64,000 bases of DNA from NCBI RefSeq assembly GCF_000208405.1, contig NC_015437.1, positions 1,171,501-1,235,500 of the forward strand, read 5' to 3'. Below the pieces are notes generated by a model that was not told the DNA's origin, searched no databases, and saw only the letters and a list, made by a program, of their open reading frames with translations. The DNA is from Selenomonas sputigena ATCC 35185. GTDB taxonomy: Bacteria > Bacillota > Negativicutes > Selenomonadales > Selenomonadaceae. Both the position numbers and the translations under genes were made by a program. Position 1 is the stretch's first letter. Each line of letters starts with the position of its first letter. Below are positions 4,205-43,195 of the stretch, piece after piece.

Positions 4205-4281
4205 TGGTCGGGATGACAGGATTCGAACCTGCGACCTCATCGTCCCGAACGATGCGCTCTACCAAGCTGAGCCACATCCCG
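4205..4281 (-). tRNA. tRNA-Pro (anticodon CGG)
   Basis: Read on the minus strand, the acceptor arms CGGGATG and CATCCCG pair perfectly, with discriminator A and an encoded CCA. The D-arm region reads TGGCTCAGCTTGGTAGAGC, the anticodon loop is TTCGGGA within stem CATCG/CGATG, and the T-arm has GGTTCGAATCC. Total length is 77 nt. The anticodon CGG reads CCG proline codons. Confidence 0.95.
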
Positions 4282-13393: not shown

Positions 13394-13510
13394 ATGATGC
13401 CGGAGGAGTTTATTGTGTATGTCGACAATCTTCCTGATGCCTGCATTGAGAAGCGCACGGCGGAGGAAGTGATCTTTCATTCGCCCAAGAAGAAGTACGC
13501 TTGTCCAGCG
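13394..13510 (+). pseudogene. Unrecognised ORF remnant
   Basis: ATG 13394 is preceded by AAGAAGG and encodes about 35 plausible residues (MMPEEFIVYVDNLPDA...). It then runs antisense through the AbiEii fragment until a stop at 13570. I do not recognise it. It may be the 5' end of a gene whose body was lost when the neighbouring toxin gene was truncated. Confidence 0.3.
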
Positions 13511-13661
13511 CCTCGGAAAAACGATCCAGTCCATAAGCAAGAAGAAGGCTCGTTCCGCCTTTCAAGATGAACGTATCGGTTTCCTTGTTGAGTTCTGTCA
13601 AGAAATTACGCATGATTTCTATATGACGCATTTGTGCGGTATTCATTCGCCTCTTGCTCAT
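13410..13661 (-). pseudogene. Truncated AbiEii/AbiGii-type nucleotidyltransferase toxin
   Basis: The minus-strand reading MRNFLTELNKETDTF, then LKGGTSLLLAYGLDRFSE, is the start of an AbiEii-type nucleotidyltransferase, which normally continues with a DxD motif and more than 200 residues. Here the similarity stops after FSEALD and about 30 unrelated residues follow before a stop at 13410. The catalytic Asp pair is incomplete, so the gene is dead. It overlaps the end of the upstream partner gene, the usual arrangement of such toxin pairs. Confidence 0.6.
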
Positions 13662-14052
13662 TTCTGAAAAGAATCCACTTCATTCGATACTCCTTTTCCA
13701 TGAATCGGTCGATGTCTGTCCAGTGTGCTGTTTCGCGCAGTTTCCAAACTGCGGCAAAAATATCTGCGTCATAAATATCCGTGCAGATATAATCGCGGCG
13801 CATGCCTTGTAAATTGGAGAAATCTCCTGTCAAGAGCAGATCGAGGCAGGCTCGGATGTGGTTCGCAATGTAGAAAATCCCTTTTTTGCCCATAAGGCTG
13901 TGATGCTGTTCGATCCCTTCCGTGCCAAACGGCGATTTCTCCGTATTCCATAAAGGAATGTTTTCCCATGACAAAGACAGCGTATGCCAATCGCCGCCCG
14001 TTTCCAAACGGCACGGAATGTTGAGCGCATGAAGCCCCGATATGTATTTCAT
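13606..14052 (-). CDS. Putative antitoxin partner of the AbiEii-type toxin
   Basis: I chose ATG 14052 because AAAGGAG lies 7 bp upstream; an ATG seven codons further 5' has none. The 148-aa product (MKYISGLHALNIPCRLETGGDWH...) is not a family I can name with certainty. Its position directly upstream of and overlapping the AbiEii remnant suggests the antitoxin gene of that pair. With the toxin broken it may be a relic, though its own frame is intact. Confidence 0.45.
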   Translation of the reverse strand: MKYISGLHALNIPCRLETGGDWHTLSLSWENIPLWNTEKSPFGTEGIEQHHSLMGKKGIFYIANHIRACLDLLLTGDFSNLQGMRRDYICTDIYDADIFAAVWKLRETAHWTDIDRFMEKEYRMKWILFRNEQEANEYRTNASYRNHA

Positions 14053-14227
14053 GACAATGCTCCTTTCCGTCATAGCACCTGGTTCACTCCCAGTATACAG
14101 GAAAATTCGCCCTTTAACAAAGTCTCGTGAAAAAATTCATGTTCGTCGGAAAGTGTGCAGTATTTAAATACTGCAAGCATTTACAATAGAGGAAGAGAGA
14201 AAGGGAGGACAGCAGATGACCGAGGAA

Positions 14228-14301
14228 CTGAAAGAGCATGATCCCGCGTCGATGCCCACCCTTACAAGGTTAGTATAAACACGCAGTAGCACGCTCCCAC
14301 T
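14228..14301 (-). ncRNA. Small-RNA array unit 1 (degenerate)
   Basis: Minus-strand promoter TTAATG (14331-14336), 17 bp, TATATT (14308-14313). The predicted RNA has a closing stem GAGCGUG/CAUGCUC, then CUGCGU/ACGCGG, and a weak UUU end. It is the least canonical -35 in the array. Confidence 0.45.
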
Positions 14302-14381
14302 ACCGTCAATATACGCGAAATACTCGTCAGCATTAAGAATATCGACGGGAAATCTTGCTATCAACAGGCAGCACGGTGCAG

Positions 14382-14451
14382 AAAAAAAGAAAGACCTCTC
14401 GCCCCCTAGCAGGAATCTCACCTGTGATAGGGACGGCGGGAAGACTTTCTA
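14382..14451 (-). ncRNA. Small-RNA array unit 2
   Basis: Promoter TTGACA (14480-14485), 17 bp, TACACT (14457-14462). The RNA closes with AGAAAG/CTTTCT plus an inner stem. It has an apical hairpin CAGG-UGAGAUU-CCUG enclosed by CCCUA/UAGGG, and ends in a seven-U tract. Confidence 0.65.
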
Positions 14452-14535
14452 CGAGTAGTGTACGAGAAATATTCATCCGTGTCAAGGCTGCCGACGGGAA
14501 GTCTTGCTATCAGCAGACATGACATAATCAGAGAC

Positions 14536-14600
14536 AAAAAAGAAGAGCTAACGCCCCAGCGGGGAGTTTACCCCTTGTGGAGCCAGATAACTCTTCTACT
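14536..14600 (-). ncRNA. Small-RNA array unit 3
   Basis: Promoter TTGACA (14630-14635), 17 bp, TATAGT (14607-14612). The closing stem is AGAAGAG/CUCUUCU, the apical hairpin is GGGG-UAAACU-CCCC, and a six-U end follows. Confidence 0.7.
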
Positions 14601-15027
14601 GCCACCACTATACGCGAGATCTTCGCCAGTGTCAAGGAAGCCTCAGAAAATTTCTACTATAAGAATGATACAGAGAGAAAAGGAGGGATAGCAGATGGCG
14701 GAAGAACTGAAAGAACTGCTCGGCAAAGACGGCAGCCGCGTCTACAAAGAAGTCGAGAAGACGCTGCAAGGCGGCAATGCGAGGGCGAAGAGCGCCGCAA
14801 GCGTCCTCGCCGCTCACGCCGCGACATGGGCAGAGCGCGTATCACGCGCGACAGGGAAGCCTTTCACGGCACAGTACTGGTCGCGCATATCCATAGATTT
14901 TATGTACCCGTGCGCATAGGAACAGAACTGAAGACAATCCGAATCGTTGCGGAAGAACAGGAAGGCGTCATCACTTTGATGCCAGCAGATGTAAACGTGT
15001 ATGATGTGTTTCTTGAAGATGTACATA

Positions 15028-15101
15028 CAAACAAAGGAGGAAGCGCTGCCACCTCAACAGGGATTTCACCTGCTGGGAGGCCAGACAACGCTTCCTCTGA
15101 T
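15028..15101 (-). ncRNA. Small-RNA array unit 4, antisense inside an open prophage frame
   Basis: Promoter TTGACA (15131-15136), 17 bp, TATAGT (15108-15113). The closing stem GAGGAAGCG/CGCUUCCUC is a perfect 9 bp, and the apex is CAGG-UGAAAUC-CCUG. The end is CUUUGUUUG, a weaker U-tract. The plus strand reads through this unit as an open frame of the prophage fragment. Confidence 0.6.
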
Positions 15102-15469
15102 GCCATTACTATACGCGAAATGCTCGCCGGTGTCAAGGACGCCGACGGGAAAACTTACTATCAGCAACATCAAGAATCCCGAGGTCAGATTCAAGGACCG
15201 TTCTCCGTGCTGCAAGAAGGCAGCCGTTTCGTCAGCTTCTTTGAAGCAGCCGACGAAAGCACCTTTCTGCATGAGACAGCGCATATCTTTTACGACGATC
15301 TCGCGCGTCTCGCGCCTTTCGATGAAGAGACTGCCGAAGACCTTGCCAAGGTCGACGCATGGGCGAGCTGGTACGAGGGCGCGGCAAAAGAATACGAAGA
15401 TACGCCGTGGGCGATGGAATTTGCCGCACGCGAACGCGCGATCGAAGATGCAGGACGCGGCAGATAAAG

Positions 15470-15539
15470 AAAAAGCTGCCCGTTTCTCTCGATCCGCCGG
15501 AGTGCAATTCTCCCTGGGGAAAGAAACGAGCTGCCTCAT
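15470..15539 (-). ncRNA. Small-RNA array unit 5
   Basis: Promoter TTGACA (15569-15574), 17 bp, TATACT (15546-15551). The closing stem is GCAGCUCGUUUCU with AGAAACGGGCAGC (13 bp with one mismatch and one G-U). The apex is CCAGG-GAG-AAUUGCA-CUC-CGGCGG, then UUUUU. Confidence 0.75.
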
Positions 15540-15585
15540 AAGCAAAGTATAAAGACACAAGCGGCTTTTGTCAATATCGACCAAT

Positions 15586-15655
15586 AAAAAGCTGCCGTTT
15601 TCAGCTCCCGCCGGGGTCCAATTCCCCCTGGCAGCCGAAAACAGCAGACTTCTTG
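15586..15655 (-). ncRNA. Small-RNA array unit 6
   Basis: Promoter TTGACA (15685-15690), 17 bp, TATACT (15662-15667). The closing stem is CUGCUGUUUUC/GAAAACGGCAG (11 bp, one G-U). The apical stem is GGGG/CCCC around GAAUUGGA, flanked by CCAG and GGCGG, then UUUUU. Confidence 0.75.
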
Positions 15656-15707
15656 ATACAAAGTATAAGGACAGAAAGGGATTTTGTCAATGGAACATCC
15701 GACATAT

Positions 15708-15778
15708 AAAAAGCATCCAAGGAGTGCGATCGGAAAGGGGCGATTCCCCTGACGGAGGCAATTCTTAGATGCTTTGAC
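15708..15778 (-). ncRNA. Small-RNA array unit 7 (no clear own promoter)
   Basis: The closing stem AAAGCAUC/GAUGCUUU is followed by a U-tract. The apex is GGGG-AAUCG-CCCC. No good promoter precedes it; it may be processed from a transcript started at unit 8. Confidence 0.5.
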
Positions 15779-15849
15779 GAAAGAGGCGTTCCCTTCTATC
15801 CCAGCCCCCCGGATAACGCTATCCGCAACTGAGAGGAACACCCCTTTAC
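15779..15849 (-). ncRNA. Small-RNA array unit 8
   Basis: Promoter TTGACT (15879-15884), 17 bp, TATCGT (15856-15861). The closing stem GGUGUUCC/GGAACGCC has one G-U. The apex is CGGAUA-GCGU-UAUCCG, unlike the other units, and the end is a weak CCUCUUU. Confidence 0.5.
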
Positions 15850-15900
15850 AGGGCTACGATAGCAAAGTTTATAGGAAAAGTCAACAAGAAGGTCATAAAG

Positions 15901-15971
15901 AAAAAGCTGTCCTGTTTCTCACATCCGACGGAGTCCAATTCTCCCTGGAAGAGCAAACGAACAGCTTCCTT
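15901..15971 (-). ncRNA. Small-RNA array unit 9
   Basis: Promoter TTGACA (16001-16006), 17 bp, TATCTT (15978-15983). The closing stem is AGCUGU...ACAGCU plus GUUU/AAAC. The apical stem is GGAG/CUCC around AAUUGGA with flanks CCAG and CGUCGG, then UUUUU. Confidence 0.7.
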
Positions 15972-16010
15972 AGCTATAAGATAGCCGAAGAAGAGGAGTT
16001 TGTCAACACG

Positions 16011-16084
16011 AAAAAGCACCGATCAAGCCAAGCGCACTACCTCCGTGCGAGGTGTGGGGCTTGTGCTCGTCGATGCTTTAACTA
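16011..16084 (-). ncRNA. Small-RNA array unit 10
   Basis: Promoter TTGCTC (16114-16119), 17 bp, TATAAT (16091-16096). The closing stem is AAGCAUCGA/UCGGUGCUU (one G-U) followed by CAAGCC/GGCUUG, with apex CCUC-GCAC-GGAGG, then UUUUU. Confidence 0.6.
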
Positions 16085-16147
16085 CCTCGCATTATATCAA
16101 AAATTATTTCTCGGAGCAATAATTTCGTGCAAGGTGAGGTAAATGAA

Positions 16148-16543
16148 ATGAATCATGAAGAACAACAGCTACAGAAGGATGAACAATATTTTGCCAAGCA
16201 GCTTTCTCGTTTTTTAGCGGCAAAGAGAGAAGATCAAAACCTATTCGCGTTATGGAAAGTCTATTGGTCAATTATCACATCGATCTATGGGCGCGGTTAT
16301 GGAAGCGGGAGGACAAGAAGTACAGATCATGTATGGTATATCAATAACGTAATGGGAGGGAGCACGCTGTATGTAAATAAAAGAAAGGCCAAGACCTTTT
16401 ACCAGTCCGCCGGGCTTCAATTGCCCCTGGAGGGTAAAAGGTTCTTTGACCTCTTTGCTTCTAGTATAAAGACCGAAGAAGATCTTGTCAAGTTCAAACT
16501 GCAAAAAGAAGAAGGATACAAGGCGGGTAAATTTCCAAAGTAA
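16148..16543 (+). CDS. Hypothetical protein, probably a remnant
   Basis: ATG 16148 has GAGGT 7 bp upstream. The first 80 or so residues (MNHEEQQLQKDEQYFAKQL...) look like a soluble helical protein with a Trp/Tyr-rich middle. The C-terminal third is the antisense reading of RNA unit 11, so the original gene probably ended or was interrupted near 16370. I do not recognise the family. Confidence 0.3.
   Translation: MNHEEQQLQKDEQYFAKQLSRFLAAKREDQNLFALWKVYWSIITSIYGRGYGSGRTRSTDHVWYINNVMGGSTLYVNKRKAKTFYQSAGLQLPLEGKRFFDLFASSIKTEEDLVKFKLQKEEGYKAGKFPK
16377..16456 (-). ncRNA. Small-RNA array unit 11
   Basis: Promoter TTGACA (16486-16491), 17 bp, TATACT (16463-16468). The closing stem is the longest of the array: AGGUCAAAGA...CCUUUUACC with GGUAAAAGG...CUUGGCCU. 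The apical stem is GGGC/GCCC around AAUUGAA with flanks CCAG and GGCGG; the end is UUUCUUUU. Confidence 0.7.
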
Positions 16544-16565
16544 ATCCCACATAATAGGTCACTAA

Positions 16566-17871
16566 CGGGATTTACTCTGAGAAGAATTTATGGCTGAATT
16601 TAGTGTGAGAAATCTCTCTACACAAAGGAGGCTGTCATCATGAAGCAAGCAGACAACAACAAGAAGAACAAGCACCTTACTGCACAAGACCGCCAGGAAA
16701 TCATGAACGGGCTCGACAGGGGATTGTCCTTCAAGGCGATCGCCCTGCTCGTTCAGAAAGATCCTACCACCATATCTTACGAAGTGAAGCGACATCGCAA
16801 AGAGCACCGCAATGCGTTCGTGCAAACAGACGAACTCTGCCCCTTGCTCGAAAAGGCACCCTTCGTCTGCAACGCCTGCCCCAAGCGCCGTTCTGCTAAC
16901 TGCCGCTTCCTCCGCCTTCTCTATGTCGCTCCGCAGGCACATGCCGAATACGAAGCGCTCCTGCACGATGCACGCGAAGGCATTCCGTTGAACCGTGCGT
17001 CTTTTTACAAGCAGGATCGCATCATTTCCTCTTGCATTGAGAAGGGGCAGCACATTTATCATATCGTCGCTTCTCACCCAGAGCTCAATGTGTCTCTCAG
17101 CACAGTTTATCGGCATTTTTCCAAGGGATATTATTCGGCTTCCAAGATTCACCTTCCACGCGCCGTAAAGTTCAAGCCTCGCAAAAAGAAGCGGGCGGAT
17201 GTCGTTCCTTCTGCCATAAAGAAGGAACGCACCTATGCGGATTTCCTCGCTCATATGGAACGGGAAGGGCTTAGCGCACATACGCAGCTTGATACCGTTA
17301 TCGGAGTTTCAGGCGGCAAAGTCATCCTCACCGTCCACTTCACTGCGTTCAATTTCATGTTCGGGCTTCTGCTCGAAAACAAGACGGCTGTGCAGGCTGC
17401 CTTGAAGTTCCAAGAGGTCAAACGAACTTTGACTGCAGGCGGTTTTGCTTTTCCTGCCCTTATGCCCGTGATGCTTACGGACAACGGTGGAGAGTTCTCC
17501 GATGTTTTCGCCTTTGAGAACAATCTTGAGGGGGAAAAGGAGGCCTGCCTTTTTTTCTGCGATCCCATGCAGTCTTACCAGAAGGCGCAAATTGAGAAGA
17601 ATCACACGCTTTTTCGCGATATTGTGCCGAAGGGGTCTTCTTTCGACCATTTCACACAGGATACCGTCAATTTGATTTTTTCGCACATCAATGGCGTCCG
17701 TCGCAACATTTACAGCGGCAAGTCTCCCTATGAGATGTTTACGTTCGCTTTTTCCGAGGAACTGGCTGCTCTTTTGGGCATCTCGTATGTTGCGCCGGAA
17801 GATGTCGTGCAGTCTCCTAGACTTCTAAAGGGCTGATCTTGCGCTGCACATCTTTCTCATAGTAAATCCCG
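16566..17871 (+). mobile_element. IS30-family insertion sequence
   Basis: Terminal inverted repeats CGGGATTTACTCTGAGAA (from 16566) and, on the other strand, CGGGATTTACTATGAGAA (ending at 17871) flank one transposase gene. No clear target duplication is seen. A further outward-facing copy of the end motif (AGTAAATCCC) lies just left at about 16540-16549, hinting at nested or earlier insertions. Confidence 0.8.
16640..17836 (+). CDS. IS30-family DDE transposase
   Basis: The 398-aa product has an N-terminal helix-turn-helix (LTAQDRQEIMNGLDRGLSFK, then PTTISYEVKRHR). The integrase-like core has DDE acids in QLDTVIG, MLTDNGGEF and IEKNHTLFRDI. A Cys-rich stretch (CNACPKRRSANC) sits between. The start has AAAGGAGG upstream. 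The frame is intact and of normal length, so the element may be mobile. Confidence 0.93.
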   Translation: MKQADNNKKNKHLTAQDRQEIMNGLDRGLSFKAIALLVQKDPTTISYEVKRHRKEHRNAFVQTDELCPLLEKAPFVCNACPKRRSANCRFLRLLYVAPQAHAEYEALLHDAREGIPLNRASFYKQDRIISSCIEKGQHIYHIVASHPELNVSLSTVYRHFSKGYYSASKIHLPRAVKFKPRKKKRADVVPSAIKKERTYADFLAHMEREGLSAHTQLDTVIGVSGGKVILTVHFTAFNFMFGLLLENKTAVQAALKFQEVKRTLTAGGFAFPALMPVMLTDNGGEFSDVFAFENNLEGEKEACLFFCDPMQSYQKAQIEKNHTLFRDIVPKGSSFDHFTQDTVNLIFSHINGVRRNIYSGKSPYEMFTFAFSEELAALLGISYVAPEDVVQSPRLLKG

Positions 17872-18330
17872 CCAGGGTGGAACTTACTCTGAAAAGCCTC
17901 GCTTTTCGGAGTGCGAAGCATGTCCTTCTTTCTAGCTTATCCCTTATGGTTCGGTCGCTTTTAAGACGATATTGTGCTCAGGTCATCCATTGCATACAAA
18001 TTCTGATGCTTCTCGCACTTACTCCTATCGGCTTTCTTAGACTAAATCCCATAGACTTACATCAGCGGAAGTTACTTTGCGAATTTACGGGATACAAGGC
18101 CGCAGCGGCTCGTGAAGCCGCCAATGAAAAAGACAGTTCCCTTCAAACCCAGCCTGCTGCCAAAAGCCACCTACAGCCGAGAGGAACTGCCTCTTATGAA
18201 CCTATGGTAACGGATTCCATCAAAGCAGTCAACAAGGAGGAAGCTAAAATGACCGCAGGAAATCGAGTCGCCGCATCATATTCCTGCTGAACAACAAAGC
18301 CCGCCAAGCTCGCCGATCCAAAACCGCATA
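17872..18330. other. Gene-free repeat-rich stretch beyond the IS30 element
   Basis: No convincing CDS. It holds a hairpin GAAAAGC-CTC-GCTTTTC (about 17890-17906), a TAAATCCC motif at about 18045 followed by a segment (18052-18090) that recurs near 52060-52110, a GC-rich hairpin around 18100-18120, and RNA unit 12. Confidence 0.5.
18127..18197 (-). ncRNA. Small-RNA array unit 12, separated from the array by IS30
   Basis: Promoter TTGACT (18227-18232), 17 bp, TACCAT (18204-18209). The closing stem GGCAGUUCC/GGAACUGUC has one G-U and is followed by UUUUU. The architecture matches units 1-11; the apex is less clear. Confidence 0.55.
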
Positions 18331-41014: not shown

Positions 41015-43195
41015 ATGGAAAAACGTACCGATGCGACGCGCGCCTCGCGGCAGCAGCTGCAGAGACGCCTGGCACCGAAGTCGAATCCGAAGCCGCCGCC
41101 GAAGAAGAAAAGCCGCGGCGGCAATGTTGTGCGCGCTCTCGTGGGTTTCCTCATCATCCTTTTTGTCATGCTTGTCGGCATTGGCTGCGGCTTCTTGACG
41201 GCGAGCATGAATACGAAAGAAAATCTCGTTGAGGATATCCGTCCGCCGGCGTCGTCCCATATCTATGACATCAACGGCAACGAGATCGCCAATGTTCATG
41301 CGACGGAGAATCGTGAGCCGGTAAAGCTCGCGCAGATTCCGAAAAATCTGCAGAACGCATTCGTCGCGGTCGAGGACAACCGCTTCTATGAACATACAGG
41401 CGTTGATCTGCGCGGCATTCTGCGCGCCGTCTATGCTAACGTCACGGGCAGGACGATCTCCGAGGGCGGCTCAACGATCACGCAACAGCTCGCAAAAAAT
41501 GCTTACCTGACGCAGGATCGGACGTTCAAGCGCAAGGTACAGGAAGTGTTCCTTGCCCTGCAGATCGAGCGCCAGTATACGAAGCAGGAGATCTTGGAGC
41601 TTTATCTGAACCAAATCTACTTCGGACAGGGCGCTTATGGCGTGCAGGCGGCGGCGAAGACGTACTTCGGCAAGAACGTCGAGGATCTTGATCTCAACGA
41701 ATGTGCGATGCTTGCGGGCATACCGAAGAGCCCCAACTACTATTCGCCGTTCAACAACTTCAACGCCGCACAGGAACGCAAGGAAGTCGTGCTCGATCAG
41801 ATGGAAAAGTACGGCTACATCAATCATGCGACGGCGCGCAAGACGACGGAAGAGAAGCCGACGCTTGCCAATAAGACACAGGCGAAGGATACGACGGGCG
41901 CGTACTTCATCGACTATATCACGCAGAAGGTCATCGACCGATACGGCGCCGATGCCATCTATAAGGAAGGCTTGAAGATCTACACGACGATCGACATGAC
42001 GATGCAGAAAGCGGCGGAAGAGGCCGCGCATACCGTGGCCGTACAGCGCACGGACGGCAATGGAGTGCAGCAGCCGCAGATGGCACTCGTTGCCATCGAT
42101 CCGCACACGGGCTACATCAAGGCGATGGTCGGCGGCCGAGGCACGGATCAGTTCAATCGCGCGACGATGGCGGAGCGTCAGCCTGGCTCGTCGTTCAAGC
42201 CCTTCGTCTTTGCAGCGGCGCTTGAGGCGAATTATTCCCCCGATACCATCATTGACGACAGCCCGATCAAGATCGGTGGCTGGTCGCCGAAGAATTACAG
42301 CGGCAATTACAGCGGCAAGGTGACACTGCGCACGGTGGCGCGCTACTCGCTCAACGTGCCTACGGTCAAGATTGCACAGAAGCTCGGCATAGAAAAGCCG
42401 ATTTACTATGCGCAAGAAATGGGCATAACGACTCTTGTGCTTGACGGTGAGCGCAACGACAAGAACTTCTCGACAGCGCTCGGCGGACTCACGAAGGGCG
42501 TGACGCCTCTGGAACTGACGAGCGCTTACGGGACGTTTGCGAACAAGGGCATACACGTCGAGCCTGTCGCCATCATTAAGATTCTCGACCGCAACGGCAA
42601 GGTTCTTGAACAGGCGGAGCTTAAGCAAAAGAGCGTCATCAAGGAAAGCAGCGCAGCAGCCTTGACGAGCATGTTACAGGACGTCGTGCAGCACGGTACG
42701 GGAACGCGTGCGAACATCGGACGTCCTGCCGCGGGCAAGACAGGTACGACGGACAACTATCACGATGCGTGGTTCGTCGGCTACACGCCCGATCTCGTGG
42801 CGGGCGTGTGGATCGGCAACGACGACAACACGTCGATGGGCGTGATGTCGGGCGGCATGGCGCCAGCAGAAATGTGGAAGGCGTTCATGCAGAAGGTTCT
42901 CGCGGGCACACCTGCAAAGAACTTTGACGGTGTTTCATATACCGCAGGAAGTGTCAGCGAGATCAAGGACGAAAAATCTGTGAAGGACGAGAAGCATACA
43001 GATAAGAAGGAAAAGAATGCCAAGGATGCGAAGAATGGCAAGGATGCCAAGGATGTGCCAAGGCCCGAGGCAGGCGGCAGAACTATGGGAGACGGTGCAC
43101 CGCAATCCGATTCTCCGCCCGCGCAGCAGCCTTCGCTCCCTGAGCCGGGTGCAGGACCTGAGCCGGGCGCAGGCGTTTCTAAGGGCAGAGATTGA
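41015..43195 (+). CDS. Class A penicillin-binding protein 1A
   Basis: This bifunctional peptidoglycan synthase has 726 aa. It has a basic Pro/Lys-rich cytoplasmic head, one transmembrane helix (VRALVGFLIILFVMLVGIGC) and a GT51 domain with AVEDNRFYEHTGVDLRG and EGGSTITQQLAKNAYL. The transpeptidase domain has PGSSFKPF (active Ser), YSLNVPT and KTGTTD. The C-terminal 90 residues are low complexity, first Lys/Asp-rich and then Pro/Gly-rich, and may bind the envelope. An AGGAGG site precedes the ATG. tyrS follows closely. Confidence 0.95.
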   Translation: MEKRTDATRASRQQLQRRLAPKSNPKPPPKKKSRGGNVVRALVGFLIILFVMLVGIGCGFLTASMNTKENLVEDIRPPASSHIYDINGNEIANVHATENREPVKLAQIPKNLQNAFVAVEDNRFYEHTGVDLRGILRAVYANVTGRTISEGGSTITQQLAKNAYLTQDRTFKRKVQEVFLALQIERQYTKQEILELYLNQIYFGQGAYGVQAAAKTYFGKNVEDLDLNECAMLAGIPKSPNYYSPFNNFNAAQERKEVVLDQMEKYGYINHATARKTTEEKPTLANKTQAKDTTGAYFIDYITQKVIDRYGADAIYKEGLKIYTTIDMTMQKAAEEAAHTVAVQRTDGNGVQQPQMALVAIDPHTGYIKAMVGGRGTDQFNRATMAERQPGSSFKPFVFAAALEANYSPDTIIDDSPIKIGGWSPKNYSGNYSGKVTLRTVARYSLNVPTVKIAQKLGIEKPIYYAQEMGITTLVLDGERNDKNFSTALGGLTKGVTPLELTSAYGTFANKGIHVEPVAIIKILDRNGKVLEQAELKQKSVIKESSAAALTSMLQDVVQHGTGTRANIGRPAAGKTGTTDNYHDAWFVGYTPDLVAGVWIGNDDNTSMGVMSGGMAPAEMWKAFMQKVLAGTPAKNFDGVSYTAGSVSEIKDEKSVKDEKHTDKKEKNAKDAKNGKDAKDVPRPEAGGRTMGDGAPQSDSPPAQQPSLPEPGAGPEPGAGVSKGRD

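Follow-up and report, generated by a model that had tools for sequence, protein, structure and literature searches.

We analysed a 64,000-nucleotide stretch of the Selenomonas sputigena ATCC 35185 chromosome (NC_015437.1, positions 1,171,501 to 1,235,500; hereafter the window), which carries a tandem array of small hairpin RNA genes on its minus strand. The array is the liberated and amplified form of a phage RNA gene and not a stand-alone invention, because its units derive from the antisense strand of two phage protein domains, MuF_C and LPD3, and because the same RNA gene is widespread in intact phage open reading frames (ORFs) of at least two bacterial phyla. The RNA gene and its structure are well supported. 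From the sequence we infer that the units are transcribed and act by pairing, so that the array would work like a cis-antisense RNA. The explanation we favour, to which we give an even chance, is that these are antisense small-RNA genes nested in genes of injected effectors, which would silence the effectors during lysogeny and exclude related phages, the array being their freed and amplified form.

Gene anatomy of the array

Eleven hairpin units (U1 to U11) lie on the minus strand at 14,229-16,491, where the original prediction had placed them. As it had also claimed, ten carry a sigma70-like promoter and the spacer is 17 bp in every one. The -35 box was a perfect TTGACA in seven of the ten; those of U2 (TTGCTC/TATAAT) and U11 (TTAATG/TATATT) were weak, that of U4 was TTGACT, and U5 had no promoter. 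Single-sequence folds compared with dinucleotide shuffles gave z values of -2.6 to -6.3 for ten of the eleven units, while the fold of U11 was weak (z -1.4). A strict scan of the whole 64 kb for promoter, hairpin and T-run returned eight matches, seven of them inside the array. The view of one unit recurring eleven times needed revision. The hairpin units are present, but at least four subfamilies can be distinguished among them by sequence, A (U1, 3, 6, 7), B (U8-11), C (U0, U4) and D (U2, U5), and a twelfth unit had been missed. This unit, U0 (18,232-18,127, minus strand), lies beyond an IS30 copy, whose insertion separated it from U1. The features are as follows.

U0, 18127..18232, minus strand: subfamily C, like U4; TTGACT-17-TACCAT, hairpin and CUUUUUC tail; separated from the array by IS30
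U1, 16382..16491, minus strand: MuF_C-type; TTGACA-17-TATACT; opposite a remnant of 'FYQSAGLQLPLEG...SIKTEEDLVK'
U2, 16011..16119, minus strand: subfamily D; TTGCTC-17-TATAAT; hairpin z -5.6
U3, 15900..16006, minus strand: MuF_C-type; TTGACA-17-TATCTT; compensatory A-U to G-C change relative to the sister genome
U4, 15778..15884, minus strand: subfamily C; TTGACT-17-TATCGT
U5, 15708..15775, minus strand: subfamily D; hairpin and U-tail; no promoter recognised for this unit, which read-through from U4 could serve
U6, 15584..15690, minus strand: MuF_C-type; TTGACA-17-TATACT; two units (117-bp repeat) at the same place in G001
U7, 15467..15574, minus strand: MuF_C-type; TTGACA-17-TATACT
U8, 15033..15136, minus strand: LPD3-type; TTGACA-17-TATAGT; opposite a 'TIREMLAGVKDADGKTYYQ' remnant
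U9, 14535..14635, minus strand: LPD3-type; TTGACA-17-TATAGT
U10, 14384..14485, minus strand: LPD3-type; TTGACA-17-TACACT
U11, 14229..14336, minus strand: degenerate LPD3-type; TTAATG-17-TATATT; nearest relative is the unit at L021:2510
14577..15467, plus strand: remnant of polyvalent-protein coding sequence surrounding U8; an open frame without a Pfam match but with a partial LPD3-like stretch
16561..17880 (ends approximate), plus strand: IS30-family element splitting the array; transposase at 16640-17836; not at this place in the sister genome G001

The end sequence of the IS30-family element (16561-17880) had seven matches in the genome, representing several further copies.

Domain linkage and coding ancestry

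A search of 60 relatives yielded an array in the sister genome G001, a second locus in that genome and single copies in other genera, and the single copies had long ORFs on the opposite strand. Read on the plus strand, each classifiable unit was the 3' end of a domain found in phage polyvalent proteins, namely MuF_C for U1, 3, 6 and 7, and LPD3 for U8-11. The group A promoter is the antisense of ...SIKTEEDLVK at the MuF_C end (PF18819; E 1e-22 in locus L017), and the group B promoter is the antisense of ...TIREMLAGVKDADG after LPD3 (PF18798; E 4e-9 in locus L021). In the intact giant ORFs of relatives, the antisense promoter, hairpin and T-run stand exactly at the end of the MuF_C or LPD3 domain. 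The ORFs opposite the units in the window are broken, and the genome of the window (G000) gave no match to MuF_C or LPD3 at E 0.001. No homology between LPD3 and MuF_C was detected by hhalign; the LPD3 alignment was too diverse for a pattern scan. The reading of the units as independent, promoter-driven hairpin RNA genes stands, apart from the promoter-less U5, but it had overlooked their origin inside phage ORFs encoding MuF_C and LPD3. Some Negativicutes polyvalent proteins (L156, L161, L164 and G156:C2) are encoded by single open frames of 4000-9186 codons.

The strict 17-bp spacing is in part inherited from the coding motif on the opposite strand (SIKTEEDLVK or TIREMLAGVK). These peptides fix the distance between the -35 and -10 boxes, NKKK codons supply the T-run, and the plus strand is homologous to MuF_C or LPD3 coding sequence. 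The resemblance to promoters and hairpins might thus have arisen by accident from a conserved peptide, with the array as a graveyard of fragments from phage genes. We regard this as very improbable. Synonymous recoding destroyed both the hairpin and the promoter, covariation was found among completely different stems, and units without an ORF kept their hairpins.

RNA structure and strand preference

We used two covariance models, R1 for the MuF_C type and R2 for the LPD3 type. In the R1 alignment (35 distinct sequences), 91.5% of the stem cells were paired, with two-sided changes in 19 of 22 pairs; in the R2 alignment (21 sequences), 95.3% were paired, with two-sided changes in 18 of 18, making 37 of 40 pairs together. 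None of 500 shuffles reached any of these covariation measures, and sliding the partner by one base lowered the pairing to 49-62%. The MAFFT alignment A5 provides a fairer test, the R1 and R2 alignments having been fitted to their models. Pairing in A5 was 91.3%, and no shuffle equalled its percentage paired or its covariation score. The covariation is overwhelming, and the original observation that the stems differ in sequence yet keep pairing is borne out (91-95% paired). The covariance test proposed with it thus had a strongly positive outcome.

A loose scan of the giant ORFs for a hairpin with a T-run was too permissive, and a codon-preserving recoding test was used instead. Antisense structure peaked exactly at the domain end, with a mean z of -2.5 for LPD3 (n=16) and -2.8 for MuF_C (n=6), and over the 100 codons upstream of it z was about 0 to +0.9. 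Held-out MuF_C genes from other Negativicutes families, found afterwards, were positive in ten of ten cases with a mean peak z of -3.9. The hairpin, as the test shows, does not simply follow from the protein sequence. The antisense promoter also beat its recoded versions (28 related loci, not all of them independent; Fisher P 1e-14). In the apical loop, GLQLP is encoded by GGG CTC CAA TTG CCC, identically in Escherichia coli and Pasteurella phages, with CTT replacing CTC in PhiR12_3; given the amino acids, these codons have a probability near 1e-5 for the E. coli phages and of 2e-4 for Pasteurella. After LPD3, peptides resembling 'SSNEALGTPS' were common to the otherwise unconserved linkers of L093, L096, L097, L092 and L144, apparently because the apical part of the antisense RNA is conserved there. 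This peptide motif may be imposed by an RNA.

The stem pairs included 127 G-U against 26 A-C, although covariance-model alignments favour G-U. This bias points to the antisense strand as the one that is kept. The antisense strand was also more stable than the sense strand in 20 of 22 loci, and the promoter and T-run make sense on the antisense strand only. These observations argue against a hairpin that acts as a DNA structure or in the sense mRNA, as a recombination hot spot for domain shuffling or in pausing or processing of the giant mRNA. The sense strand, too, was more structured than its recoded versions (mean z -3.1), and the units do recombine, as with a 117-bp unit lost in the window genome and a hairpin inverted in genome G088; on the whole we find a DNA or sense-strand role improbable.

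Distribution in phages and bacteria

R1 matched 18 of 189 Selenomonadaceae genomes (9 genera) and R2 matched 14 of the 189 (8 genera). When we started from the protein domains, an antisense hairpin with a T-run was found just past LPD3 or at the MuF_C end in most loci, often with TTGACA-17-TATAxT and with hairpin sequences unrelated to one another. Two prophage contigs in IMG/VR carry the antisense unit. One of them, L144, has two tandem antisense units 3' of the LPD3 domain in an intact SLT-LPD3-helicase polyvalent ORF, and both share the leader TATAxTATTAGTAGAAG. Other Bacillota families have a unit behind LPD3, for example with TTGACA-17-TATAAT in L128. The MuF_C unit was present in the Escherichia phages PhiR5_2 (z -5.4) and phi296 (z -3.3) and in the Pasteurella phage Pmp11 (z -5.8). 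Pseudomonas phage H66 was a less clear case, with a visible hairpin and T-run but a z of only -2.2; the annotation of its protein is that of a structural protein, with verification by mass spectrometry. Among 5,426 complete E. coli genomes, 434 contain a homologue of a part of the PhiR5_2 stretch, and most of these matches are partial and start at or past the hairpin core.

In Selenomonas felix (L057, 2845-2957, plus strand), a single stand-alone unit lies among ordinary chromosomal genes, its loop unchanged and its stem different yet almost perfectly paired. Stand-alone units without an ORF in other genera likewise retained perfect stems and loops. In G088 (L030/L044, G088:C1:1647081-1647222), a MuF_C-type hairpin is inverted relative to its TTGACA-18-TATACT promoter, as though the stem-loop had been turned round between the two arms. 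A weak R1 match in the window at 41106-41232 on the minus strand (20.6 bits, E 0.04) is probably due to chance.

Turnover and release of the array

In the sister genome G001, the IS30 element is missing from this place and U0 adjoins U1. The array of G000 has lost one 117-bp unit at U6 that is present in G001, and a few substitutions separate the two arrays, whose divergence is only about 2% over much of the length. Several of the substitutions are compensatory, namely in U3 (GGGAG/CTCC against GGGGG/CCCC) and in U6 (CGGCU/AGCUG against CAUCU/GGAUG in a neighbouring copy). Thus units have been copied and lost by recombination while the structure was kept. A second array of four units, surrounded by broken ORFs, is present in the sister species (L021, G001:C1:2225923-2229041, at 1504-2620 on the plus strand).

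With so short a divergence time, these data suggest present selection on the array but do not prove it. The phage antisense RNA genes might be real and the chromosomal array neutral debris with no present role, a reading compatible with the phage part of the explanation we favour. The low divergence, the degenerate state of U11 and U5 and the gain and loss of units by recombination are in keeping with it. On the other side, promoters and stems are intact in at least eight units despite the broken ORFs, U3 and U6 differ by compensatory changes between the sister species, and stand-alone units of other genera keep perfect stems and loops. We consider neutral debris possible, though doubtful.

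Directly next to the array, at 13410-14073 on the minus strand, the window encodes a truncated AbiEii nucleotidyltransferase (83 aa, E 1e-6) downstream of a 155-aa gene. The 155-aa gene has no match in Pfam or NCBIfam and adjoins the array in the sister genome too.

Proposed function

Each unit would be a sigma70-driven hairpin RNA gene of about 75 nucleotides with its own intrinsic terminator. Such genes probably arose within phage genes for giant polyvalent proteins, on the strand facing the 3' end of the MuF_C domain, which has a BECR/RNase fold, and of the LPD3 domain. The RNA is predicted to be made constitutively from the prophage as a cis-antisense silencer and to fold into a stable stem-loop whose apical loop is conserved. 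This loop would kiss the complementary loop of the effector mRNA and so block effector expression during lysogeny, and the UUGG of the apical loop fits the YUNR U-turn of antisense-RNA loops. In trans, effector expression from an incoming related phage would be blocked, leading to superinfection exclusion. In the Selenomonas lineage, the RNA genes may have survived the decay of their ORFs and multiplied into a tandem array comprising several subfamilies, which would serve, in multi-target form, as a small collection of antisense RNAs against phages. The RNA gene lies opposite its candidate target gene with its own promoter and end, and its complementarity to the opposite mRNA is perfect in cis, by position. 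Packaging and injection are predicted for polyvalent proteins, and a BECR/RNase fold has been described for the MuF-C domain (PMC5512222). The nearest functional precedent is STnc6030, an antisense RNA of a prophage that lies opposite the gene for a putative injection protein; it excludes related phages, and point mutations escape it (PMC7067206). It is because of the predicted injection of polyvalent proteins, the MuF-C fold and this precedent that we favour antisense silencing and superinfection exclusion; phage interference, which the original prediction had raised, stays a possible role.

Several observations weigh against this explanation. Excess antisense structure was absent from phage Mu gp30 and from the LPD3 genes of Burkholderia phages, and the signal was weak in L088, L090 and the phages P27 and phi367. 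The small difference between the array and its sister would also be expected if retention were recent and not selected. The array stems drift with compensation, which lowers the complementarity to any single target. Finally, the domain linkage also fits a protein-binding RNA, since antisense action does not require that the RNA gene be fixed at the end of a domain.

A protein-binding RNA is the main rival. The RNA would be a partner of the BECR-fold MuF_C and of LPD3, whether as a type III-like RNA antitoxin, an inhibitor or a cofactor; domain and RNA gene would travel as one module, and stand-alone arrays would neutralise injected effectors by binding the proteins. The RNA gene is placed precisely at the end of the domain and travels along with it. 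The basal stem is variable whereas the apical part and loop are constant within a subfamily, and are kept in stand-alone units without an ORF. MuF-C has a BECR/RNase fold, and RNA binding has been suggested for its inactive versions (PMC5512222). However, the same RNA layout occurs at LPD3 and MuF_C, which have no detectable homology, the LPD3 set as a whole lacks conserved apical sequences, and the units do not resemble type III antitoxins, with their repeat-pseudoknots ahead of a toxin gene. We judge protein binding unlikely; if right, it would be a categorically new system. A further, less likely possibility is a phage RNA-protein module of a new kind, in which the injected effector domains MuF_C and LPD3 would each carry an opposite-strand, diversified hairpin RNA gene that neutralises that effector specifically. 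Bacteria would then have harvested these RNA genes into multi-specific immunity arrays, an RNA counterpart of orphan immunity-gene clusters.

Comparison with known systems

No Rfam family matched the units at gathering or permissive thresholds. The array DNA had no similarity to phage or plasmid DNA, the exact apical motif was not found in IMG/VR, and protein patterns from the window fragment had no relative there. We agree with the original prediction that the array is not a clustered regularly interspaced short palindromic repeat (CRISPR) array, a tRNA cluster or an insertion sequence; no identical repeats occur between the units, and the only tRNA gene that ARAGORN found in the window was a tRNA-Pro at 4205. 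Type III toxin-antitoxin RNA was rejected, as each unit has its own promoter and is antisense inside an ORF. So was type I, the opposite genes encoding polyvalent proteins of 500-9000 aa with no small hydrophobic toxin ORF. An AbiF/Cas13-type or AbiE-linked RNA, considered for the neighbouring AbiEii fragment, was rejected because most copies in relatives sit inside polyvalent-protein ORFs.

The closest parallels differ from the units in several respects. STnc6030 of the Salmonella prophage BTP1 (Owen et al. 2020, PMC7067206) is a prophage RNA opposite late genes, including one for a putative DNA-injection protein, and excludes a related phage in trans. Unlike the units, it is 786 nucleotides long and single-copy, with no conserved hairpin reported, no position at a protein-domain end and no array (PMC7067206). 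The 24B_1 precursor of the Stx phage Phi24B is an 80-nucleotide hairpin transcript from a phage sigma70-like promoter, but it lies between lom and vb_24B_43, a Rho-dependent end is suggested and no link to MuF_C is shown (PMC4426718). The MuF polymorphic toxins and polyvalent proteins, whose genes host the RNA, are covered in papers dealing with the proteins and downstream immunity ORFs (PMC5576092, PMC5512222); a text search of the polymorphic-toxin paper did not find the term 'antisense'. RNA-OUT of IS10 and similar RNAs are constitutive, about 70 nucleotides long and opposite their target, with a single imperfect stem-loop from whose apical loop pairing starts. RNA-OUT, however, opposes the start of the transposase gene, and its stems are conserved between copies and not diversified. 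The type III RNAs ToxI, CptI and TenpI resemble the units in being repeated and linked to an RNase-like protein, but they are tandem pseudoknot repeats under one promoter, on the same strand and upstream of the toxin, whereas the units have one hairpin per promoter and are antisense within an ORF. No published description of such RNA genes was found in the open-licence literature, and the RNA gene seems to be undescribed so far.

Implications

If our explanation is true, these units would represent a large class of phage RNA, a structured antisense gene at defined protein-domain ends in temperate phages of at least two phyla, which has apparently been overlooked because of its location inside annotated ORFs. 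Its function is directly testable, E. coli K-12 being a host of close relatives. Should the RNAs prove to silence or neutralise injected effectors, this would explain how lysogens tolerate polyvalent effector genes, and hosts would have a route by which to collect RNA immunity against phages. The RNA genes may serve as RNA-based immunity between phages.
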